49,207 nucleotides of DNA from a virus, in the IMG/VR virus record IMGVR_UViG_3300042691_034842, positions 1 through 49,207 of that record; one strand, given 5' to 3'. The notes under the pieces are model-generated. The model had not been told where the DNA came from and ran no database searches. It saw nothing but the letters and a program-made list of their open reading frames with translations. Position 1 is the first letter of the stretch, and each line of letters starts with the position of its first letter. Positions 8,363 to 45,770 of the stretch are shown here, in pieces. Position numbers and translations under genes: made by a program.

Positions 8363-8830
8363 TTATTTATTTTTTCCTGTATAGGTATTAGTTAAGGAGT
8401 GACAATTAGGGCAAAGGAATCTTAAATTAGATAATTTATAATTCCAAGCATTACCATCAATATGATCTAAATGTAAAGATAATTTTTTACCTATCCACTC
8501 TGAAATTCCACATTCGTTACATTCTTGCGGAATAAGATTTTCTTGTATAATACGTTTTCTTACTGAAGCACGAGTTGCATAATCCTCTATACTAATTATT
8601 CTTTTTTTGAAATTCTTTTTTAATCCTTTACCTGATTGGTTTGTATTGTAACAACCATATTCTATAGCGTATCTTTTAAAGGTATTAATATGCAATCCTA
8701 ATCTAGAAGCAGCATGTGACATTGATTCACTACTATTACATATATCAATGAACTCTTGTTGGGGAATATCTTTGGGTTTAATTCCTGATTTTTCCCAGCT
8801 ATTTGGTTTTTTAGTATTATATTGTTTCAT
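8363..8830 (-). CDS. HNH homing-type endonuclease
   Basis: 155 residues. The N-terminal half looks like a helix-turn-helix (MSHAASRLGLHINTFKRYA) used by free-standing phage HNH enzymes to read DNA. The nuclease part has CNEC at 104-107, LDHIDG at 121-126 and CPNCH at 140-144, all metal and catalytic positions intact. It lies directly after the intron-containing tRNA-Leu, the position expected of an endonuclease that spreads a neighbouring intron; that link is inference. Confidence 0.9.
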   Translation of the reverse strand: MKQYNTKKPNSWEKSGIKPKDIPQQEFIDICNSSESMSHAASRLGLHINTFKRYAIEYGCYNTNQSGKGLKKNFKKRIISIEDYATRASVRKRIIQENLIPQECNECGISEWIGKKLSLHLDHIDGNAWNYKLSNLRFLCPNCHSLTNTYTGKNK

Positions 8831-8874: not shown

Positions 8875-9156
8875 TGCCCCCAACGAGAATCGAACTCGTA
8901 CTCGCTTACTAAGCGAACAGGATTTTCTTACTACTATAGCTTTCGCTACCTTTTCAGTTTGTAGTCTGGACTATACCTTCACCTTATTTTTCAACTTAGG
9001 TGTTCCGTGTCTAGTCTCTACACCTTCCCTTTCGGGCTTGGCTCGGTATTACCATTTTAAAGGCTTCACCGAATTTACGGAATTTTACTCTTTAGATTTC
9101 TCTAAAGGCACTCAAATAACTAAGTCCTGCGTGTCTACCTATTCCACCACAGGGGC
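8875..9156 (-). tRNA. tRNA-Leu(UAA), interrupted by a group I intron
   Basis: Exons 9122-9156 and 8875-8926. Spliced, they form a class II leucine tRNA: acceptor GCCCCTG/TGGGGGC with two wobbles, anticodon stem CAGGA/TCCTG with loop CTTAAAA, long variable arm and T-loop TTCGATT, discriminator A. The 195-nt insertion lies after the first anticodon base (U34). CCA is not encoded. Confidence 0.92.
8927..9121 (-). ncRNA. Group I intron in the tRNA-Leu(UAA) anticodon loop
   Basis: 195 nt. The conserved core reads on the minus strand: GAGCCAAGCC (P4/P5 side), GGTGTAGAGACTAGAC (P3/P7 side), AAGGTATAGTCCAGAC (P7/P3 side) and a TAGCGAAAGCTA hairpin (P9-like). The intron follows U and ends in G, as group I introns do. 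Core sequence and insertion point match, as I recall, the cyanobacterial tRNA-Leu(UAA) group IC3 intron (about 250 nt in Anabaena). It is shorter and has no internal ORF. Confidence 0.93.
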
Positions 9157-9158
9157 AT

Positions 9159-9280
9159 TTGCTGTCTTTCCAGCAGTCAGAAGAACTTGAAACTTACCTA
9201 CGCACCAGTGAGGTATTCTTCATGTTTGTTCACAGAGCCTAAGCAGTGTCTAGTATGCTTTTGGTTGTCGTGCGTATCAA
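9159..9280 (-). ncRNA. Structured RNA, copy 1 (upstream of tRNA-Leu(UAA))
   Basis: About 120 nt ending 2-3 nt before the tRNA-Leu 5' end. It shares long identical blocks with the copy at 12286-12408: CGCACGACAACC, TTAGGCTCTGTGAA, TACCTCACTG and GTGCGTAGGTAA. Helices: TACGCAC/GTGCGTA (9199-9205 with 9270-9276), GAAGAA/TTCTTC (9180-9185 with 9216-9221), which crosses the first as a pseudoknot, and a final TGCTG/CAGCA hairpin (9160-9175). I do not recognise the family. Confidence 0.75.
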
Positions 9281-9283
9281 TGA

Positions 9284-9371
9284 TAGTTTATCCTTTTTAC
9301 TCATCAAGTAATCCGTCCTATTGTAGGCACTTTGGCTCCTTAAAAACATACTACCAAACTAAACATCCTCG
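9284..9371 (-). other. Spacer between structured RNA and tRNA-like RNA
   Basis: I see no gene in these 88 bases. They may form an extension of the adjacent structured RNA, but the second copy of that RNA lacks a counterpart, so they are probably not part of the core. Confidence 0.4.
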
Positions 9372-9528
9372 CTGTAAGGGAAGGATTCGAACCTTCATAC
9401 GGTGATTCAATAAACGACATTTGTACTGCAGCTTGTGGTCAATCCTTATCGTTTATCTATTTCATTTTCCGCGCCCACGAGACGAGTGGGTGTGTATACC
9501 ATGGTCTAGACTCTTTCACCACCTTACA
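9372..9528 (-). ncRNA. tRNA-like RNA 1, abnormal centre (157 nt)
   Basis: Ends fold like a tRNA: acceptor TGTAAGG/CCTTACA (7 bp), T-arm GAAGG-TTCGAAT-CCTTC and discriminator G. The D region resembles a leucine-type D-arm (GGTGGTGAAA...ATGGTATACAC) with 11 extra bases. The centre has a hairpin CCCAC/GTGGG with a loop lacking U33, and a long side arm ATAAACGA/TCGTTTAT. It is about 70 nt too long for a normal tRNA and I cannot assign an anticodon. It may be an intron-bearing tRNA, a decayed tRNA or a Y-RNA-like molecule. Confidence 0.6.
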
Positions 9529-9541
9529 ATTTTGTTTGATT

Positions 9542-9739
9542 TTATCTAGCTTCTTTATAAAGACGAATCAAAGTAAGTGCTATATCTACAGGAGCTAATA
9601 TCCAACACATAATCACAAGACCTAAAGTATCAAGTCCTGGGCTAATGCCCAATCCTCCTGCCTGTACATCACGATTCCATCTACGAAAAGTCATTATTAA
9701 ACAATAAGCTAAACATATTAAATAATAGGTCCAAAACAT
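9542..9739 (-). CDS. Small membrane protein, 65 aa
   Basis: 65 residues with two hydrophobic stretches (WTYYLICLAYCLIMTF and LGLVIMCWILAPVDIALTLI) separated by a polar, Gly-rich linker. It starts 12 nt after the RNase H-like gene, so it is probably translated from the same transcript. No recognised family. Confidence 0.65.
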   Translation of the reverse strand: MFWTYYLICLAYCLIMTFRRWNRDVQAGGLGISPGLDTLGLVIMCWILAPVDIALTLIRLYKEAR

Positions 9740-9751
9740 AATTTTTATTTT

Positions 9752-10210
9752 TTATTTTACAAGAGCATCAGCAGCATACGTCATCATTGGACATTCACCT
9801 TTATGTCTTACTTTATATCCCATACCTGTTACAATACCTACAGCACTTGCTAATGCTTGATTTGAACGGTATTTTGGATCAGGATTAAGATCAATATCAA
9901 TCCAAGTTGCTACTATACTTGTTTCATTTTTAATTGCTTCTGCCACTTCAACAGAAAACCATACTTCATTTAATAAACGAACTGTATTTTCTTTTTCACG
10001 TAATGTATTAAATCTTGAATATAATACATGAGCTCCTTTTCCTGGGCGTGAAAGTCCAATTACAATAGCATATATTGTTTCGTTTTTTCTGTTTTGTGAA
10101 TCACATCCAATAAGTATTTCTACATTATCGTGTTGTAATATGTATTCTTTTATATATTGTATTAGCTCAATTTTTTGATTTGAAGCTAATGTTTTAAACA
10201 TTTTTTCCAT
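9752..10210 (-). CDS. RNase H-like protein, DUF458/YkuK type
   Basis: 152 residues. GCDSQ at 35-39, then YAIVIGLSRPGKGAHVLYSR and DIDLNP near 105-110, follow the layout of DUF458 (Bacillus YkuK), a family predicted to have an RNase H fold. Acidic residues for metal binding are present. It lies directly after the structured leader RNA (10211-10535), so a role in cutting or trimming RNA in this locus is attractive but only inferred. Confidence 0.75.
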   Translation of the reverse strand: MEKMFKTLASNQKIELIQYIKEYILQHDNVEILIGCDSQNRKNETIYAIVIGLSRPGKGAHVLYSRFNTLREKENTVRLLNEVWFSVEVAEAIKNETSIVATWIDIDLNPDPKYRSNQALASAVGIVTGMGYKVRHKGECPMMTYAADALVK

Positions 10211-10535
10211 AATTTAAAATTTAATAACTGAGAAAATTTAACTGAGTTTGTTTTGATATTTGCAGAATCGAAGTAACTCAACTATAACTACAGCATTAAT
10301 AAATTGACCGAGATTTCTGGGGTGAGTCGTTCGGTAGCTCCGAACAGCACCAGGGAATTTATACTCGTCGTCAAGTGTTTTTTAAGCACCAGTACACGTC
10401 CTCTACCCTGATAACTCGAGGGAAGTTGGTAGATTGTATTTAAAATGAGCGGCATGTAGCCGCGGTATTTAATTACGAAGTACCTCACCTAATCCTTACT
10501 ACGGTAATATTTTAATCAAAGATCTATTTGTTATA
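10211..10535 (-). ncRNA. Structured leader or non-coding RNA downstream of TROVE gene
   Basis: About 325 bases, less AT-rich than the flanking genes, between the TROVE gene and the RNase H-like gene. Minus-strand hairpins include TTCGG-AGCTA-CCGAA enclosed by CTGGTG...CACCCCAG, and CGCGGC...GCCGC. The 3' part matches the element at 14278-14408: GCTGTAGTTATAG, then GAGTTACTTCG, whose GAGTT pairs with a downstream AACTC. A 66-codon frame (10288-10488) exists, but its GC-rich codons and paired sequence argue against a protein. Confidence 0.65.
10516..10525 (-). promoter_or_regulatory. boxA-like site, copy 1
   Basis: Minus strand AGATCTTTGA near the start of the leader RNA. It matches the sites at 14399-14408 and 15866-15882 and resembles boxA antitermination elements. 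Confidence 0.4.
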
Positions 10536-10572
10536 TATAAATATACGGGCGGCGTTTTAAACCGCCCATATA
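10536..10572 (-). promoter_or_regulatory. Hairpin plus -10-like box between TROVE gene and leader RNA
   Basis: GGGCGG and CCGCCC (10547-10567) form a GC-rich hairpin right after the TROVE stop codon, a plausible terminator without a pure T-tract. It is followed at once by GTATATTTATAT, a -10-like box that could start the leader RNA. Confidence 0.6.
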
Positions 10573-12114
10573 TTATATTTCAATTGCTTCAATAGCTTTA
10601 ATCAGTGCTTTTGGATCAATTTCTACTTTTTTAATCAGTTCATAAATGTCTGATGAATATCCGTAAATACCATAAACTTTACTTCCTGGTTTAAACATTG
10701 TAGTTCCATATCCGCAAATATCTACTGAATATACATGCATATTTGCATATGCTGATTTTTCTATGTGATCTTTACCTTGCATATCTGAAATTATAAACAC
10801 ACGATCATAGTTTTTTCCTATAGTTCTGAATATGCTTTCAAATGCTGTTCCATATCCTACTGATCCTTGTTGACCTAAGAATTGATTCTTAAGTGTATTT
10901 ACACTATCAAGTGGGTTAAACTTAATTTGAGTAGTTCTATCAGCAAAATGATAAACATCGGCATTAATACCCTTAGCTAATGTAGCTGCAATTAATGCTG
11001 CTTTTGCAATAGCGGATTCTGAACCAGCATTTTTATTAGCTAATCTAATTCGTGAGGTCATTGAACCTGAACTATCAAATATTACTGCTGTTTTTCCATG
11101 TGGAAATAATTCAGTTAAGTTTGGAATAGCTAACTCATAAGCTGTATTTAAAGCATTTATAAATGGTCTTGCTCCACTTGCTCCAAATTCATCTAACATT
11201 ATTTCTAATGCTAAATCAATTTGGTGAGGAAATACTAATGATTGCTTAATTAGAGCTTTATCAGTTAATAATTCACAAGCACCTTTAATAACTTCGGATT
11301 TAGCTCCTGTTTTTAAGATGTTTCTTAAGTTACGTAGTAACGCTAAGTAACCAATCTTACGAGTTTCAATCAATTCAGCAAAGTTATCTTCTTTAGCTTC
11401 ATTTAATACTGCTACAGCTTGTTCAGCAGTAATTTTTCCTGCTTTTACTTTAGCTGCTACTTCTTGACCTGCTTTAGTATTTTTATCTTCTACTGTGTTA
11501 AATTGCTTTAACTCACCTTTCATCAATTTAGCAAACACTGACTTCATCTTTTCAGAAGGTTTTGGGTGTACTAAATTAATAATATCAACTAAAGATAAAT
11601 CACGATTTTTAGCTTGATATTTTGCTAATTCATATTCATCAGCTGCTTCTAAAGCCGCTTTAAATCCTTTTTTGATAGCGTTTGATAATTGTTTACCTGG
11701 GTTTCTAGCTTGATAGCATGCTGCTATTTCTAGCATATCATCTAAACGATAGATGACACCACCAGCATTTGCTTTTCTTTCTCTTTTAGAGAAGAATCTA
11801 GCACCTAAACTATCACCAGCTAATACTTTAGCTAATTCTACAGCACCAAAGTGTGTAACAGTTCTTTGACCCATAACACTACGAGCATATACCATTGCTT
11901 TTGCAGCGAATACTTTATCAGTTTTAGCTACTTCAGCAATAACATTAGCAAAACGTTGTTCGCGTTCACCTAGTTTTTCATAATACTTATTATCCAAACC
12001 TGTAGCTAAAATTGCTACTAGTTCAGTTTTTGAATCATATTGATAACCATTTCCACCTTGGTGGTTTACAACTGTTTGTACAGTTGGTTTTGCTTTTGCA
12101 TTAAAACGTGCCAT
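10573..12114 (-). CDS. TROVE/vWA protein (Ro60-like RNA-binding protein)
   Basis: 513 residues. The N-terminal 330 residues form a HEAT-like TROVE module (early block QRTVTHFGAVELAKVLAG; FKAALEAADEYELAKYQA at 151-168; LVHPKPSEK near 181-189). The C-terminal third is a von Willebrand A domain with an intact metal site DSSGS at 347-351 and ISDMQ near 442. This is the Ro60/Rsr architecture. Known relatives bind misfolded small RNAs and Y RNAs and, in bacteria, work with exonucleases in rRNA or tRNA processing. Here it sits inside a tRNA and structured-RNA cluster. It has its own promoter-like element at 12164-12189. Confidence 0.93.
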   Translation of the reverse strand: MARFNAKAKPTVQTVVNHQGGNGYQYDSKTELVAILATGLDNKYYEKLGEREQRFANVIAEVAKTDKVFAAKAMVYARSVMGQRTVTHFGAVELAKVLAGDSLGARFFSKRERKANAGGVIYRLDDMLEIAACYQARNPGKQLSNAIKKGFKAALEAADEYELAKYQAKNRDLSLVDIINLVHPKPSEKMKSVFAKLMKGELKQFNTVEDKNTKAGQEVAAKVKAGKITAEQAVAVLNEAKEDNFAELIETRKIGYLALLRNLRNILKTGAKSEVIKGACELLTDKALIKQSLVFPHQIDLALEIMLDEFGASGARPFINALNTAYELAIPNLTELFPHGKTAVIFDSSGSMTSRIRLANKNAGSESAIAKAALIAATLAKGINADVYHFADRTTQIKFNPLDSVNTLKNQFLGQQGSVGYGTAFESIFRTIGKNYDRVFIISDMQGKDHIEKSAYANMHVYSVDICGYGTTMFKPGSKVYGIYGYSSDIYELIKKVEIDPKALIKAIEAIEI

Positions 12115-12163
12115 TTTACTACTAATTTAATTGTTAGAGAATATTAATTGCTTTTTACTTAAT

Positions 12164-12189
12164 AAATGTAAGACTATCTTTTTTGACAA
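12164..12189 (-). promoter_or_regulatory. Promoter-like element, TROVE gene
   Basis: Minus strand TTGTCAAAA, 10 nt, then TACATTT, about 50 nt before the ATG. Spacing is 16 nt. The longer untranslated leader distinguishes it from other members. Confidence 0.5.
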
Positions 12190-12201
12190 CCAAACTTTTT
12201 G

Positions 12202-12283
12202 TGCCCAGAGAGAGACTCGAACTCTCACGCCTTTCGGCACCAGTTTCTAAAACTGGCGTGTACTGCCATTTCACCACCTGGGC
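12202..12283 (-). tRNA. tRNA-Leu(UAG)
   Basis: Class II tRNA without intron. Acceptor GCCCAGG/TCTGGGC, D-arm GGTGAAATGGCAGTACAC, anticodon loop TTTAGAA, variable arm GCCGAAAGGC, T-loop TTCGAGT, discriminator A. Confidence 0.95.
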
Positions 12284-12285
12284 AT

Positions 12286-12408
12286 AGAGTGGGCCTTTCC
12301 CCACGGTCAAACAAGCTTGAAATTTACCTACGCACAGTGAGGTACTTGTTGTGATCATTCACAGAGCCTAACCCTTTACTAGTATAGTTTCGGTTGTCGT
12401 GCGTGTCA
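12286..12408 (-). ncRNA. Structured RNA, copy 2 (upstream of tRNA-Leu(UAG))
   Basis: Second copy of the RNA at 9159-9280, again ending 2-3 nt before a leucine tRNA. Stems change in compensated fashion: AACAAG/CTTGTT (12310-12315 with 12345-12350) replaces GAAGAA/TTCTTC, and the final hairpin is GTGGG/CCCAC instead of TGCTG/CAGCA. The outer ACGCAC/GTGCGT stem is kept. Confidence 0.78.
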
Positions 12409-12413
12409 TGCTG

Positions 12414-12509
12414 TAGTCAGGACAGGATTCGAACCTGCAGTGTAGGACTTATTTTTTTTTGCCTCTATCCGTTACGGAACACCCTTTAGCCAATTTGGGA
12501 CACCTGACT
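12414..12509 (-). ncRNA. tRNA-like RNA 2, abnormal centre (96 nt)
   Basis: Acceptor AGTCAGG/CCTGACT and T-arm GCAGG-TTCGAAT-CCTGT are perfect, and the D-region (TCCC...GGCTAAAGGG) is of serine or tyrosine type. The centre is two imperfect hairpins (TCCG-TAA-CGGA, then TAG.GG...CCTA around an A9 run) and no standard 7-nt anticodon loop is visible. Acceptor and T-arm are nearly identical to tRNA-like RNA 3. Confidence 0.6.
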
Positions 12510-12800: not shown

Positions 12801-12925
12801 TAGTCAGGACAGGATTCGAACCTGTAATTTATATAAACGTAGGGTTGCAACCCCTAACTGCCTAAGTGTCATACACCTCCTGCTTGGACATTTATATTGC
12901 GTCTAACCAATTTCGCCACCTGACT
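12801..12925 (-). ncRNA. tRNA-like RNA 3, leucine-type ends (125 nt)
   Basis: Acceptor AGTCAGG/CCTGACT, T-arm ACAGG-TTCGAAT-CCTGT, and a textbook leucine D-arm (TGGCGAAATTGG...GACGC). The centre is about 40-50 nt too long: ATATAAA/TTTATAT pairs around an AGGTGT-ATG-ACACTT hairpin and a stem TAGGG-GTTGCAA-CCCTA. That last stem looks like an anticodon arm (UGC) but is displaced. An unspliced intron or a non-translating tRNA mimic would both fit. Confidence 0.6.
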
Positions 12926-23991: not shown

Positions 23992-24839
23992 TATATTAAT
24001 TTTTTAGTCACTTCAATAGCAGCACAATTAATAATATCTAAATTACCTGCATATTCAGGTAAATAATCACCTGATCCTTTTACTTTAATACTAAGTACTA
24101 ATATATCATCATTTAATGTTGGTGGCATTACTAATTCATAGTAAGGAATATATGTTTGTAATTCTTTTATTTTATCGTATATTTTAGGAACTAAATTAGT
24201 AAAATCAACATCTTTAACCTTTAAGAACATTGTTGTTTGCATATCAACACAAGGTTCAGCTGGGTTAAGGTTTAAGATTACTTTGCAATTAGGACATTTT
24301 GTAAATTGATGAATAGCTCTCTCAGTAGTATGAATATAATTATCAATATTAATTCTAGTAGCCATACCTGCACTTTTAGATGCTATTTGAGATACTACTT
24401 CAATATACTCTAATCCCTCACAATATTGAGATATTAAATTAAGCATAGGCATTGATGCTTGACCACCACAAGTAATCATATTTACATTTCCTTCATTTTT
24501 AGCTATATCAGCATTAATACTAGGAACACATAAAGGACCTATTTTAGCTGGTGTTAAATCTATTACTATTATTCCTTGTTCTTTAAAAATAACAGCATGC
24601 TGTTTAGCATCAGCAGCACTTGTGCAATCATAAACTACATCACAACATTTAGGATTATCAATAAAATATTTGATACCCTTATCAGTAACAGGTATTCCTT
24701 TATCTTTAGCAATTCTAATTCCATCAGAATCCATTCTGCGTCCTGCAAATATAACAGGAGTAATAAAGTCTGTCTTTAATATTTTAAGTAATAAATCAGT
24801 TCCTATATTACCAGTACCTATAATTCCTGCTTTAATCAT
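23991..24839 (-). CDS. Acetaldehyde dehydrogenase, acylating (DmpF type)
   Basis: 282 residues, somewhat shorter than the usual 300-315. Rossmann motif GTGNIGTD at 8-15, cofactor-binding AGRRMDSDG near 32-40, and the thiolate cysteine C124 in MITCGGQASMP. The known enzyme interconverts acetaldehyde and acetyl-CoA with NAD and channels acetaldehyde from the aldolase. Its stop overlaps the aldolase start codon by 1 nt, preserving the usual pairing of the two subunits. Confidence 0.92.
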   Translation of the reverse strand: MIKAGIIGTGNIGTDLLLKILKTDFITPVIFAGRRMDSDGIRIAKDKGIPVTDKGIKYFIDNPKCCDVVYDCTSAADAKQHAVIFKEQGIIVIDLTPAKIGPLCVPSINADIAKNEGNVNMITCGGQASMPMLNLISQYCEGLEYIEVVSQIASKSAGMATRINIDNYIHTTERAIHQFTKCPNCKVILNLNPAEPCVDMQTTMFLKVKDVDFTNLVPKIYDKIKELQTYIPYYELVMPPTLNDDILVLSIKVKGSGDYLPEYAGNLDIINCAAIEVTKKLI

Positions 24840-26629
24840 CTTTTTATTTGTTTAGATTTTTCACTAACTCCAATAATCATTTCTTTTTTTACTATTTCAA
24901 ATGGAAGTAATGGAGACATTTCTTCAATAGGAGGAGCAAATATACTACCATCTTCTTTAAGAACTCCTTTTACTTTAGGAATAAAATCCTGTTCTGGATC
25001 CATAAACACTTCTAATACTGTAGCTTTATTATTATTTATGAATGCATTTACTACAGTATCAAAATCGTCCCATTTCTTTAATCCATAGTAATTATATCCA
25101 AAGGCAGGCATTAATTTGCTAAAATCAGGTAACCCTACACCTGTTTTTTTATCTACATTTACATAATTTCCTTTAAATAGCATCTTTTGAGTATGCTTAA
25201 TCATTAAGTATCCATCATTATTGAATATTACTATTTTTACAGGTAAATTATTCTCTACAATAGTATGTGCTTCTTGTAAATTCATCATCATCCCACCATC
25301 ACAATTTAAACATAGTACAGGTCTATCAGGACATGCTAATGCTGCTCCTAAAGCTCCAGGTAGGCCATATCCCATTTCTCCCAAACCTAATGATGTAAAC
25401 ATTGTTTGATTAGGTTTTAACTTAATTGCTTGATGGCCACTTAATAAAGCAGTACCCATATCAGTTACTATGATATGGTTGTCTTTTAAATGATCAGATA
25501 ATCTATCTATAAATTTATATGAATTAAGATAACCATTATCATTATGAATATTTTCATCTACCCAAGGATATTTTTGTTTTATTTCGTTACAATAGTTAAC
25601 CCATTCTTCTTTGTAGCCCCAAATTCTGTAAGAATTATCTATAAGCTTATTTATAACGTATTTACAATCAGTTTGTATATAATTTACATTATATTTATTT
25701 CCTTCATTTTTATCAATATCAATAACTATAATCTTAGCGTTTCTAGCAAATTGACTAAAGTCATATCCTACCTGAGGTAAAGCTAATCTACTACCTAACA
25801 CAATTATTAAATCAGCATTTTGTACTATAAAATTAGCTGCTCGTTGTCCATATAATCCAAAACGACCAAAAAAATTAGGATTATCATTATCTAATAAATC
25901 AATACCTGACCAGGTTAATAGTGTGGGTATTCTTAATATTGAATTAAGTTGTTTAAATTTATCTTTTGCTCCAGATAATTTAACACCGTGCCCTCCAATT
26001 ACAACAGGACGTTTAGAAAAATTAATAGATTCAATAATTTCATCAACACTAAGTTGACTACCCGAAACATTTAAAAAAAGCGGATAATCAGGCCATACTT
26101 TCTCTTCAACCATTTTAGCTTGTAAATTCATTGGTACATCTAACCAACAAGGACCTGGTCTTCCCATAGTTGAAGAGTCATATAATATTTCTAAAATTGC
26201 TTGAATATCATATTCATCATTAAAAGCTATAGCACATTTAGTAACATCTTCTACCATTTTAGTTATGTTTAGACCCTGTGTGCCATACATTCTAAGATGT
26301 TCTTGAGTACTTACATAATTATAATTTTCTTGTCCTGAAATAATTAACCCAGGAATTGAATCAGCCCAATTACTAACAACACCAGTCACAGCATTGGTTG
26401 CTCCTCCTCCTGCTGTTACTAATGCTACAGATAATTTACCTGATGCTCTGTAATAAGCTCCCATTGCTAATACAGCAGCCTGTTCATTATGAACATTAAT
26501 AATTTTAGTATAACCTAATTTATTAATTGAATCAAATATATGTGAGTTAGCAGATCCTATAATACCAAATGCAGTATTAATTTCTTTTCTTTTTAAAAAC
26601 TCTGCTATTACATCACTTACTTTTACCAT
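24836..26629 (-). CDS. Thiamine-diphosphate enzyme, acetolactate synthase-like
   Basis: 597 residues with three domains. E49 in VHNEQAAVLAMGA activates the cofactor, VTAGGGATNAVTGV follows, and the cofactor motif CDGG (443-446) ends at FNNDGY (469-474). The second domain (about 190-345) is FAD- or nucleotide-binding-like. Family members add a two-carbon unit from pyruvate to a carbonyl; the relative YerE does so on a 4-keto-deoxysugar. The adjoining RfbH-like and dehydratase genes suggest such a branching reaction here. Confidence 0.92.
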   Translation of the reverse strand: MVKVSDVIAEFLKRKEINTAFGIIGSANSHIFDSINKLGYTKIINVHNEQAAVLAMGAYYRASGKLSVALVTAGGGATNAVTGVVSNWADSIPGLIISGQENYNYVSTQEHLRMYGTQGLNITKMVEDVTKCAIAFNDEYDIQAILEILYDSSTMGRPGPCWLDVPMNLQAKMVEEKVWPDYPLFLNVSGSQLSVDEIIESINFSKRPVVIGGHGVKLSGAKDKFKQLNSILRIPTLLTWSGIDLLDNDNPNFFGRFGLYGQRAANFIVQNADLIIVLGSRLALPQVGYDFSQFARNAKIIVIDIDKNEGNKYNVNYIQTDCKYVINKLIDNSYRIWGYKEEWVNYCNEIKQKYPWVDENIHNDNGYLNSYKFIDRLSDHLKDNHIIVTDMGTALLSGHQAIKLKPNQTMFTSLGLGEMGYGLPGALGAALACPDRPVLCLNCDGGMMMNLQEAHTIVENNLPVKIVIFNNDGYLMIKHTQKMLFKGNYVNVDKKTGVGLPDFSKLMPAFGYNYYGLKKWDDFDTVVNAFINNNKATVLEVFMDPEQDFIPKVKGVLKEDGSIFAPPIEEMSPLLPFEIVKKEMIIGVSEKSKQIKR

Positions 26630-44147: not shown

Positions 44148-45770
44148 TTACATTCCAAATTCTGCCATTCCACCTAAATCATCTTTTTTCTTATCTTCAG
44201 GTTTTTCATGAATTACAGCTTCAGTCATTAGTAATGTAACAGCAGCGTGAGCAGCATTTTCAAGAGCACAACGTACTACTTTAGTAGGATCCATAATACC
44301 TGATTTGAAAGCATCAACTGTTGTATTATTTGCAATGTCAGGAACAACTGATTTATCTGTTTTAGAATTTAATTTATCCCACCATTCTTGAGGATCTTCT
44401 CCTGCATTTTTAAGGATTTGTTTAAATGGTTTAGCACAAGCTTGGAATATAATTGATACACCTTTACTTTTATCATCCTTACCCATCACATCAAGTACTC
44501 TTCTAGCATGTAATAAAGCGATACCTGCACCTGGTAATATACCTTCATCAAGAGCTGCTTTGGTAGCTTGTAAAGCATCATCTAAGCGGTCTTTCTTTTC
44601 TTTCATTTCAATTTCAGTACCACCACCTACATTAATAATAGCTACTCCACCAACCATTTTACCTAAACGCTCTTGCAATTTTTCAACGTTGTATGGTGTA
44701 GTTTCTTTTTCTAATTGATTTTTTAAAGATAAAATACGTTCTTCAATTTTCTTAGGATCTCCTTTACCATCTACAATTGTAGTAGCTTCTTTACCTACAG
44801 TAACAATTCTAGCTTGACCTAACCAATCTGTATTAAATTTGGATAATGACATACCTCTTTCTGGGGAAACAACAGTAGCACCAGTTAATATAGCTATATC
44901 TTCTAACATTTGATTTCTTAAATCACCAAAGCCAGGTGCCTTTACAGCAGCTACTTTCAACGCTCCTCTACCTTTATTCATTACAAGAGTTGCTAATGCT
45001 TCACCCTCAATGTCTTCAGCAATAATAAGTAAAGCTTTTTGTTCAGCTGATACTCTTTCTAATAGATGCAATAAATCTTTAATTACTGTTATCTTTTTAT
45101 CATAAATTAAAATAAAAGGATCATTTAAAACAGCAGTCATTGAATTATTGTCTGTAATAAAATAGTGTGATTTATATCCTCTATCGAATTGTAATCCTTC
45201 TACCACTTCAAGTGATGTTTCACCAGTACGTGATTCTTCTACTGTTACTACTCCATCTCTACCTACTTTATCTAAGGCAGTAGCTACTAATTCTCCAATT
45301 TCAGTATCACCATTTGCAGATAATGTTGCAATTTGTTTAATTTGTTCTTCGCTAGTAATGTCTACAGACATTTCTTTCAATTCATTAACTACAGCTTTAA
45401 CTGCTTCTTCAATACCTCTTTTTATTTGAGTAGCATTAGTTGAAGCATATGTTGTTGCTTCTAATGCGTGAGATGCTATTGAATGTGCTAACACAGTTGA
45501 AGTAGTTGTACCATCACCAGCTTGATCAACTGTTTTTTGTGCTGCTTGTTTAATAACAGTAGCAGCCATATTTTCAATTGGATCTTCTAAAACAATTGTT
45601 TTAGCAACAGTGACACCATCTTTGGTTGATGATACTTCATTGTGTTCTTTTTCAATTAATACATTACGTCCAAAAGGACCCATAGTAATAGAAACAGCTT
45701 TGTTAACTTTATCAATACCTTTTTGTAGTTTTTCTTTCGCCTCGCGGTCGAAACTAATTATTTTACTCAT
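44148..45770 (-). CDS. groL: Chaperonin GroEL
   Basis: 540 residues, close to the bacterial 545. Hallmarks: [28 protein letters not shown] (nucleotide site DGTTT), [26 protein letters not shown] and [11 protein letters not shown]. The GGM-rich tail is reduced to [10 protein letters not shown]. With the GroES at 46232-46525 it could form a phage-specific folding chamber for capsid or other virion proteins, as proposed for other phage GroELs. Confidence 0.97.

Follow-up and report, generated by a model that had tools for sequence, protein, structure and literature searches.

IMG/VR record IMGVR_UViG_3300042691_034842, a virus record of 49,207 bases that was analysed over its whole length (hereafter the window), carries two copies of an RNA element of about 100 bases, E1 and E2, both on the minus strand. 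In each copy a core is followed by a hairpin, P4, and then by a leucine transfer RNA (tRNA-Leu). As argued below, we favour with moderate confidence the reading that the element is a phage RNA present in single copy that acts in trans as a dimer, with ends that can be secured by interchangeable means, and not a leader of tRNA-Leu. The features of the two copies are the following:

9279-9178, minus strand: E1 core RNA, from TGAT to the 3′ strand of P3 (model R1, 99.9 bits, E 1.9e-18)
12408-12308, minus strand: E2 core RNA (model R1, 102.3 bits, E 5.9e-19)
9270..9275, minus strand: 5′ strand of E1 P1, ACGCAC, with partner GTGCGT at 9205-9200; a pseudoknot, based on four P1 versions with matching partners in the family
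12399..12404, minus strand: 5′ strand of E2 P1, ACGCAC, with partner GTGCGT at 12335-12330; same basis as in E1
9249..9254, minus strand: E1 apical loop ACTAGA, with self-complementary core CUAG
12378..12383, minus strand: E2 apical loop ACTAGT, a perfect palindrome and the proposed kissing-loop dimer contact
9180..9221, minus strand: E1 P3, GAAGAA (9221-9216) with TTCTTC (9185-9180), enclosing UACCU (9215-9211) and AGGUA (9199-9195)
12310..12350, minus strand: E2 P3, AACAAG (12350-12345) with CTTGTT (12315-12310), enclosing UACCU (12344-12340) and AGGUA (12329-12325)
9160..9175, minus strand: E1 P4 hairpin TGCTG-GAAAGA-CAGCA, 3 nucleotides before the tRNA, read from the sequence
12289..12304, minus strand: E2 P4 hairpin GTGGG-GAAAGG-CCCAC, 5 nucleotides before the tRNA, read from the sequence
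8875..9156, minus strand: tRNA-Leu(UAA) after E1, split by a group I intron (intron match 9132-8946; exons read from the sequence)
12201..12283, minus strand: tRNA-Leu(UAG) after E2 (ARAGORN; RF00005, 53 bits)

The initial annotation had described two elements upstream of the leucine tRNAs; both are present, as confirmed by their matches to model R1, and an alignment of the two over about 94 nucleotides shows 80% identity (E = 1.8e-18). The helices it had listed are likewise real, GAAGAA/TTCTTC versus AACAAG/CTTGTT corresponding to P3, TGCTG/CAGCA versus GTGGG/CCCAC to P4, and ACGCAC/GTGCGT, common to both copies, to P1. One of them does cross P1, but this is P3, whereas the helix listed second is P4. 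Similarly, the distance of 2-3 nucleotides to the tRNA holds for E1 (3 nucleotides) but not for E2 when counted from P4 (5 nucleotides, or 2 by the boundary chosen in that annotation). Beyond these features, we recognised helices P1b and P2, a possible UACCU/AGGUA helix and the palindromic apical loop.

To collect homologs, sequence patterns were used, first from the 3′ half (48 viral DNA stretches) and later of further kinds, followed by a covariance model; the matches to the latter place the family on about 100 viral contigs. Many of these further copies lie beside tRNAs, and the refuting outcome named in the initial annotation was thus not seen. One of these contigs, G001 (167 kb), has element sequences identical to both E1 and E2 and is probably the same phage as the window. 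Two named phages with the element, recovered with L011 as the query, are phages of Porphyromonas gingivalis ATCC 49417. Rfam 15 gave only chance-level matches over the element, both for the whole window at gathering thresholds and for several regions around the elements with E cutoffs of up to 5-10, in keeping with the earlier impression that no family matches. A search of phages by BLAST with E1 returned a single trivial match of 21 nucleotides, and 396 Bacteroidota genomes yielded no copy, which shows little since the set had no positive control. Ten pattern matches in genome contigs are attributable to chance, none having the 5′ half of the element, and pattern matches L052-L054, L056, L057, L071, L073, L074, L087, L180, L181, L183-L192 and L194-L199 are not members. 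We found no description of the element in the open-licence literature; it may have been mentioned elsewhere. None of the known RNA families that were tested has a definition that fits the element, and for this reason we rate the family as categorically new; its function may yet be of a known kind.

The proposed structure, pseudoknot included, was scored on 45 sequences and then again on 70 distinct sequences. In the latter set, 95.8% of cells are paired, compared with 42% or less in slid versions of the structure, 254 cells are changed on both sides versus 73 in shuffles, and compensatory changes support P1b, P2 and P3. The pair sets of P1b are ACA/UGU, GCA/UGC and AGG/CCU, the variants of P2 include CUUG/CAAG, CCUU/AAGG, CCUG/CAGG and CCCG/CGGG, and P3 displays two-sided changes at all six pairs. 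The pseudoknot helix P1 occurs in four versions, ACGCAC, ACGAGC (L051), ACGAGT (L127) and ACAGGA (L135), and the partner matches each time. By contrast with these helices, pairing of UACCU with AGGUA is plausible but not proven by change, because the two segments are almost invariant across the family, and the search patterns favoured them. RNAalifold, unprompted, recovers P1b, the outer pairs of P2, P3 and UACCU/AGGUA. The functional, pseudoknotted RNA postulated in the initial annotation is thus borne out by comparative sequence evidence. A coding explanation was ruled out, as no reading frame of the core is open in all copies.

The apical loop carries a self-complementary core at its centre in every complete copy. 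Twelve perfect hexamer palindromes were found (GTGCAC, AGCGCT, ATCGAT, ACTAGT, ACATGT, ATGCAT, TCTAGA, AGTACT, ACGCGT, ACCGGT, GTCGAC and TTGCAA), and the remaining loops are ACTAGA, which keeps the CUAG core, GTGCAT, which is complementary to itself if G-U pairs are counted, and ACTGGT, seen a single time, which is so by way of wobbles. Of the 132 cells scored in 44 distinct loops, 122 are Watson-Crick, compared with a mean of 48.9 and a maximum of 67 in 5000 shuffles. In several comparisons the flanks are identical and the hexamer alone differs (AGCGCT versus ACGCGT, AGCGCT versus AGTACT, ACTAGA versus ACATGT), with self-complementarity kept. The innermost pair of the loop would join neighbouring bases, which makes pairing within one molecule impossible, and the palindrome therefore points to a kissing-loop homodimer, as judged from sequence comparison. 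Self-complementarity alone is no proof of a dimer in the cell, and the loop might instead be bound by a two-fold symmetric protein or pair with another RNA; we consider this quite unlikely, because neither a sequence-specific protein nor one fixed target would tolerate a variety of at least 12 different hexamers.

Searches of whole records found a single copy in 24 records of one set of 25 and in all 40 records of another (64/65), two being found only in the phage of the window. A self-pairing loop and one copy per phage would also suit a structural or packaging RNA that forms loop-mediated oligomers in a role comparable to that of phi29 pRNA, and the copy in the Porphyromonas phages does lie between the major capsid and adaptor genes. 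However, a single palindrome yields a dimer and not a ring, and in most other phages the element is housed in tRNA regions, so that such a role appears very unlikely.

The settings vary widely, and flanking genes differ between copies. Downstream of the element lies a tRNA-Leu, a leucine-like tRNA-like gene, a protein gene or nothing recognisable; a place just ahead of a leucine tRNA is one setting among several. In about a quarter of the contigs the element sits inside a tRNA-like gene, replacing the anticodon and variable arms. Such genes have the form AGTCAGG, D arm, variable insert, T arm, CCTGACT. In the tRNA-like shells around the element, five different acceptor stems pair 7/7 and the T stems 5/5, and the shell is therefore under selection. 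Standalone copies commonly lie inside a closing helix of their own, of up to 17 base pairs and in many cases better than in shuffles, and some have no clear closing helix. A second conserved non-coding block, around ACAACGTGGGAACTGCGGYTCTCCCAATGTGG, is found downstream of some standalone copies (L011, L016, L031, L004, L020). An intron explanation was rejected, as excision from the tRNA-like genes would leave no anticodon arm and the element also exists alone.

These settings bear on two kinds of role. The first, which includes the leucine or tRNA sensor of the initial annotation, is that of a cis-acting leader that matures or regulates the following tRNA-Leu or tRNA-like gene, either as a processing signal or as a sensor of leucine or tRNA. 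The element and P4 do stop a few nucleotides before a tRNA-Leu or leucine-like tRNA-like gene in many contigs, as they do in the window. However, the constant class of downstream gene that characterises a cis-acting riboswitch or leader was not found among the copies: many have no tRNA downstream, some are standalone or precede protein genes, about a quarter are inside tRNA-like genes, and there is one copy per record despite many tRNAs. We regard a cis-acting leader as unlikely, and a leucine or tRNA sensor is disfavoured because some settings lack such a gene. The second is that of a self-cleaving ribozyme that frees RNA ends beside tRNAs, for which the compact pseudoknot, the long invariant core and the tRNA neighbourhood in phages would be fitting and theta ribozymes at tRNA 3′ ends provide a precedent (PMC10879173). 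Against it, the neighbouring tRNA is not constant, and the order of helices is not that of ribozymes like that of hepatitis delta virus (HDV). The HDV order, P1-P2-P3-P1′-P4-P2′, has the P3 hairpin before the 3′ strand of P1, whereas in the element only UACCUCAC and one or two nucleotides separate the 5′ strand of P3 from the 3′ strand of P1. Self-cleavage is disfavoured because a cut inside a tRNA-like gene, whose halves still pair 7/7, would split the selected shell. A ribozyme, including one freeing the tRNA 5′ end, is accordingly an improbable explanation. The third suggestion of the initial annotation, a protein-binding site, may hold.

One copy per phage and varied settings argue that the element acts as a molecule of its own and not as a leader of tRNA-Leu. 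The reading that we favour starts from the fold, the self-complementary loop, the single copy per phage record and the variety of settings, all seen by comparison of sequences, and supposes that the RNA would dimerise in solution, be released by tRNA processing and act in trans. The core is a pseudoknot in which P1 crosses P3 and probably UACCU/AGGUA, and one arm (P1b-P2) ends in the self-complementary loop. Through this loop two copies of the RNA may join as a kissing-loop homodimer, whose two conserved cores would be offered to a partner that is probably a protein. The ends of the RNA would be secured by the closing helix in standalone genes and by the tRNA-like shell where the element takes the place of the anticodon and variable arms. 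In the window, the element may be cut from the transcript of a tRNA array by tRNA-processing enzymes, with P4 kept as a 3′ hairpin.

Several points weigh against this reading. The sequences are related, and not all covariation counts are independent events; moreover, the patterns used for gathering fix parts of the member sequences, UACCU above all. Loops of the ACTAGA type would form just four Watson-Crick pairs in a dimer. In addition, many copies are still found next to tRNA-Leu or leucine-like genes, and this could point to a role linked to tRNAs. As a more far-reaching and tentative possibility, the element could be a phage RNA device of a new class that acts on host translation or defence: a pseudoknot that forms homodimers and exists either alone or as the body of a tRNA-like RNA that lacks an anticodon and may be charged with leucine. 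If the favoured reading is true, tRNA shells serve phages in the maturation or protection of other RNAs. The small size of the element puts structure determination and simple loop-swap tests within reach.

Three further features lie around the elements in the window:

10573-12114, minus strand: Ro60-like gene between E1 and E2 (TROVE, 37.6 bits; phrog_850, E 3.3e-33)
12414..12509, minus strand: tRNA-like gene AGTCAGG...CCTGACT with an irregular middle part, directly 5′ of E2
9372..9528, minus strand: tRNA-like gene TGTAAGG...CCTTACA with an insert of about 100 nucleotides, 5′ of E1, read from the sequence

The adjacency of the first of these genes raises the possibility that the natural partner of the element is the Ro60-like (TROVE) protein, which would make the element a form of Y RNA. 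However, phrog_850 was found in only 5 of 36 element-bearing records and PF05731 in 2 of 39 (records may be incomplete), and in G010 the phrog_850 gene is about 86 kb from the element. Ro60 as a general partner was rejected on these grounds, and we hold this explanation to be highly improbable. The non-coding stretch at about 10215-10572, beside the Ro60-like gene, could hold the Y RNA of that gene.

Regarding the tRNA genes, ARAGORN missed tRNA-Leu(UAA) after E1 because a group I intron (RF00028, 75 bits, E 2.1e-18) interrupts it. As placed by eye, the intron apparently separates U34 from A35, the site also used by tRNA-Leu introns of cyanobacteria, and an HNH endonuclease gene follows the tRNA at 8363-8830. 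Arrays of tRNA-like genes, in which highly variable inserts replace the normal anticodon arm between a near-constant 5′ half, AGTCAGGTGGCGGAATTGGTAGACGC, and 3′ half, ACAGGTTCGAATCCTGTCCTGACTAC, are present in the window (12414-12509 and about 12801-12859, minus strand) and in L069, L072, L079, L080 and L088; in one record of 41 kb, 12 copies of the 3′ half fall within 5 kb. Small hairpins of the P4 type known from the tRNA-Leu-linked elements (TGAC, variable stem, GAAAGA loop) also occur apart from the element, beside other tRNA genes (flanks of L005, L012 and L029). The window further encodes a GroEL-like chaperonin (44148-45770) and a thiamine-pyrophosphate enzyme (24836-26629, minus strand).

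Among known RNAs, the retroviral dimer initiation site is a hairpin loop with a 6-nucleotide palindrome, e.g. GUGCAC, a hexamer that is also found in the element, but sequence, structure and context are unrelated. Some bacterial Y RNAs, which are bound by Ro60, carry a tRNA-like part, and a Ro60-like gene lies beside the elements of the window; the element, however, has no Rfam match. Transfer-messenger RNA (tmRNA) resembles the tRNA-embedded copies alone, in that a tRNA-like acceptor and T-arm part (7/7 and 5/5 pairs) encloses a pseudoknotted RNA, but the element shows no tag reading frame, its D arm is of the leucine type and it also stands alone. ARAGORN called no tmRNA at the element, and no tag-coding frame is open in all copies of the core. 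Separate tmRNA genes lie near some copies; those with long tags (DEMSTMTF..ALAA) follow the element and tRNA-Leu(UAA) by a few hundred bases to about 1.2 kb in L015, L024, L033, L041, L046 and L047. Theta ribozymes, which are HDV-like and are located at the 3′ ends of tRNAs in phages whose hosts are mainly Bacteroidota (PMC10879173), are likewise small pseudoknotted RNAs beside phage tRNAs, but the element shares neither their position at the 3′ end nor their HDV order of helices.

GOLLD and ROOL are noncoding RNAs of phages and prophages, of unknown function and often near tRNA islands, that form homo-oligomers partly via kissing loops (PMC12286853). The element is similar to them in its location and, as its sequences suggest, in its mode of self-association, but GOLLD and ROOL are several hundred nucleotides long and form nanocages, and no Rfam similarity links the element to their family models. 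Neither is known as an insert replacing the anticodon arm of a tRNA-like gene. The element, joined to tRNA-like genes without anticodon arms, would add to these a class of RNAs, spread across very different phages, for which sequence comparison argues unusually clearly for a homodimer, and it is relevant to the question why phage tRNA islands repeatedly turn out to contain RNAs of unknown function.

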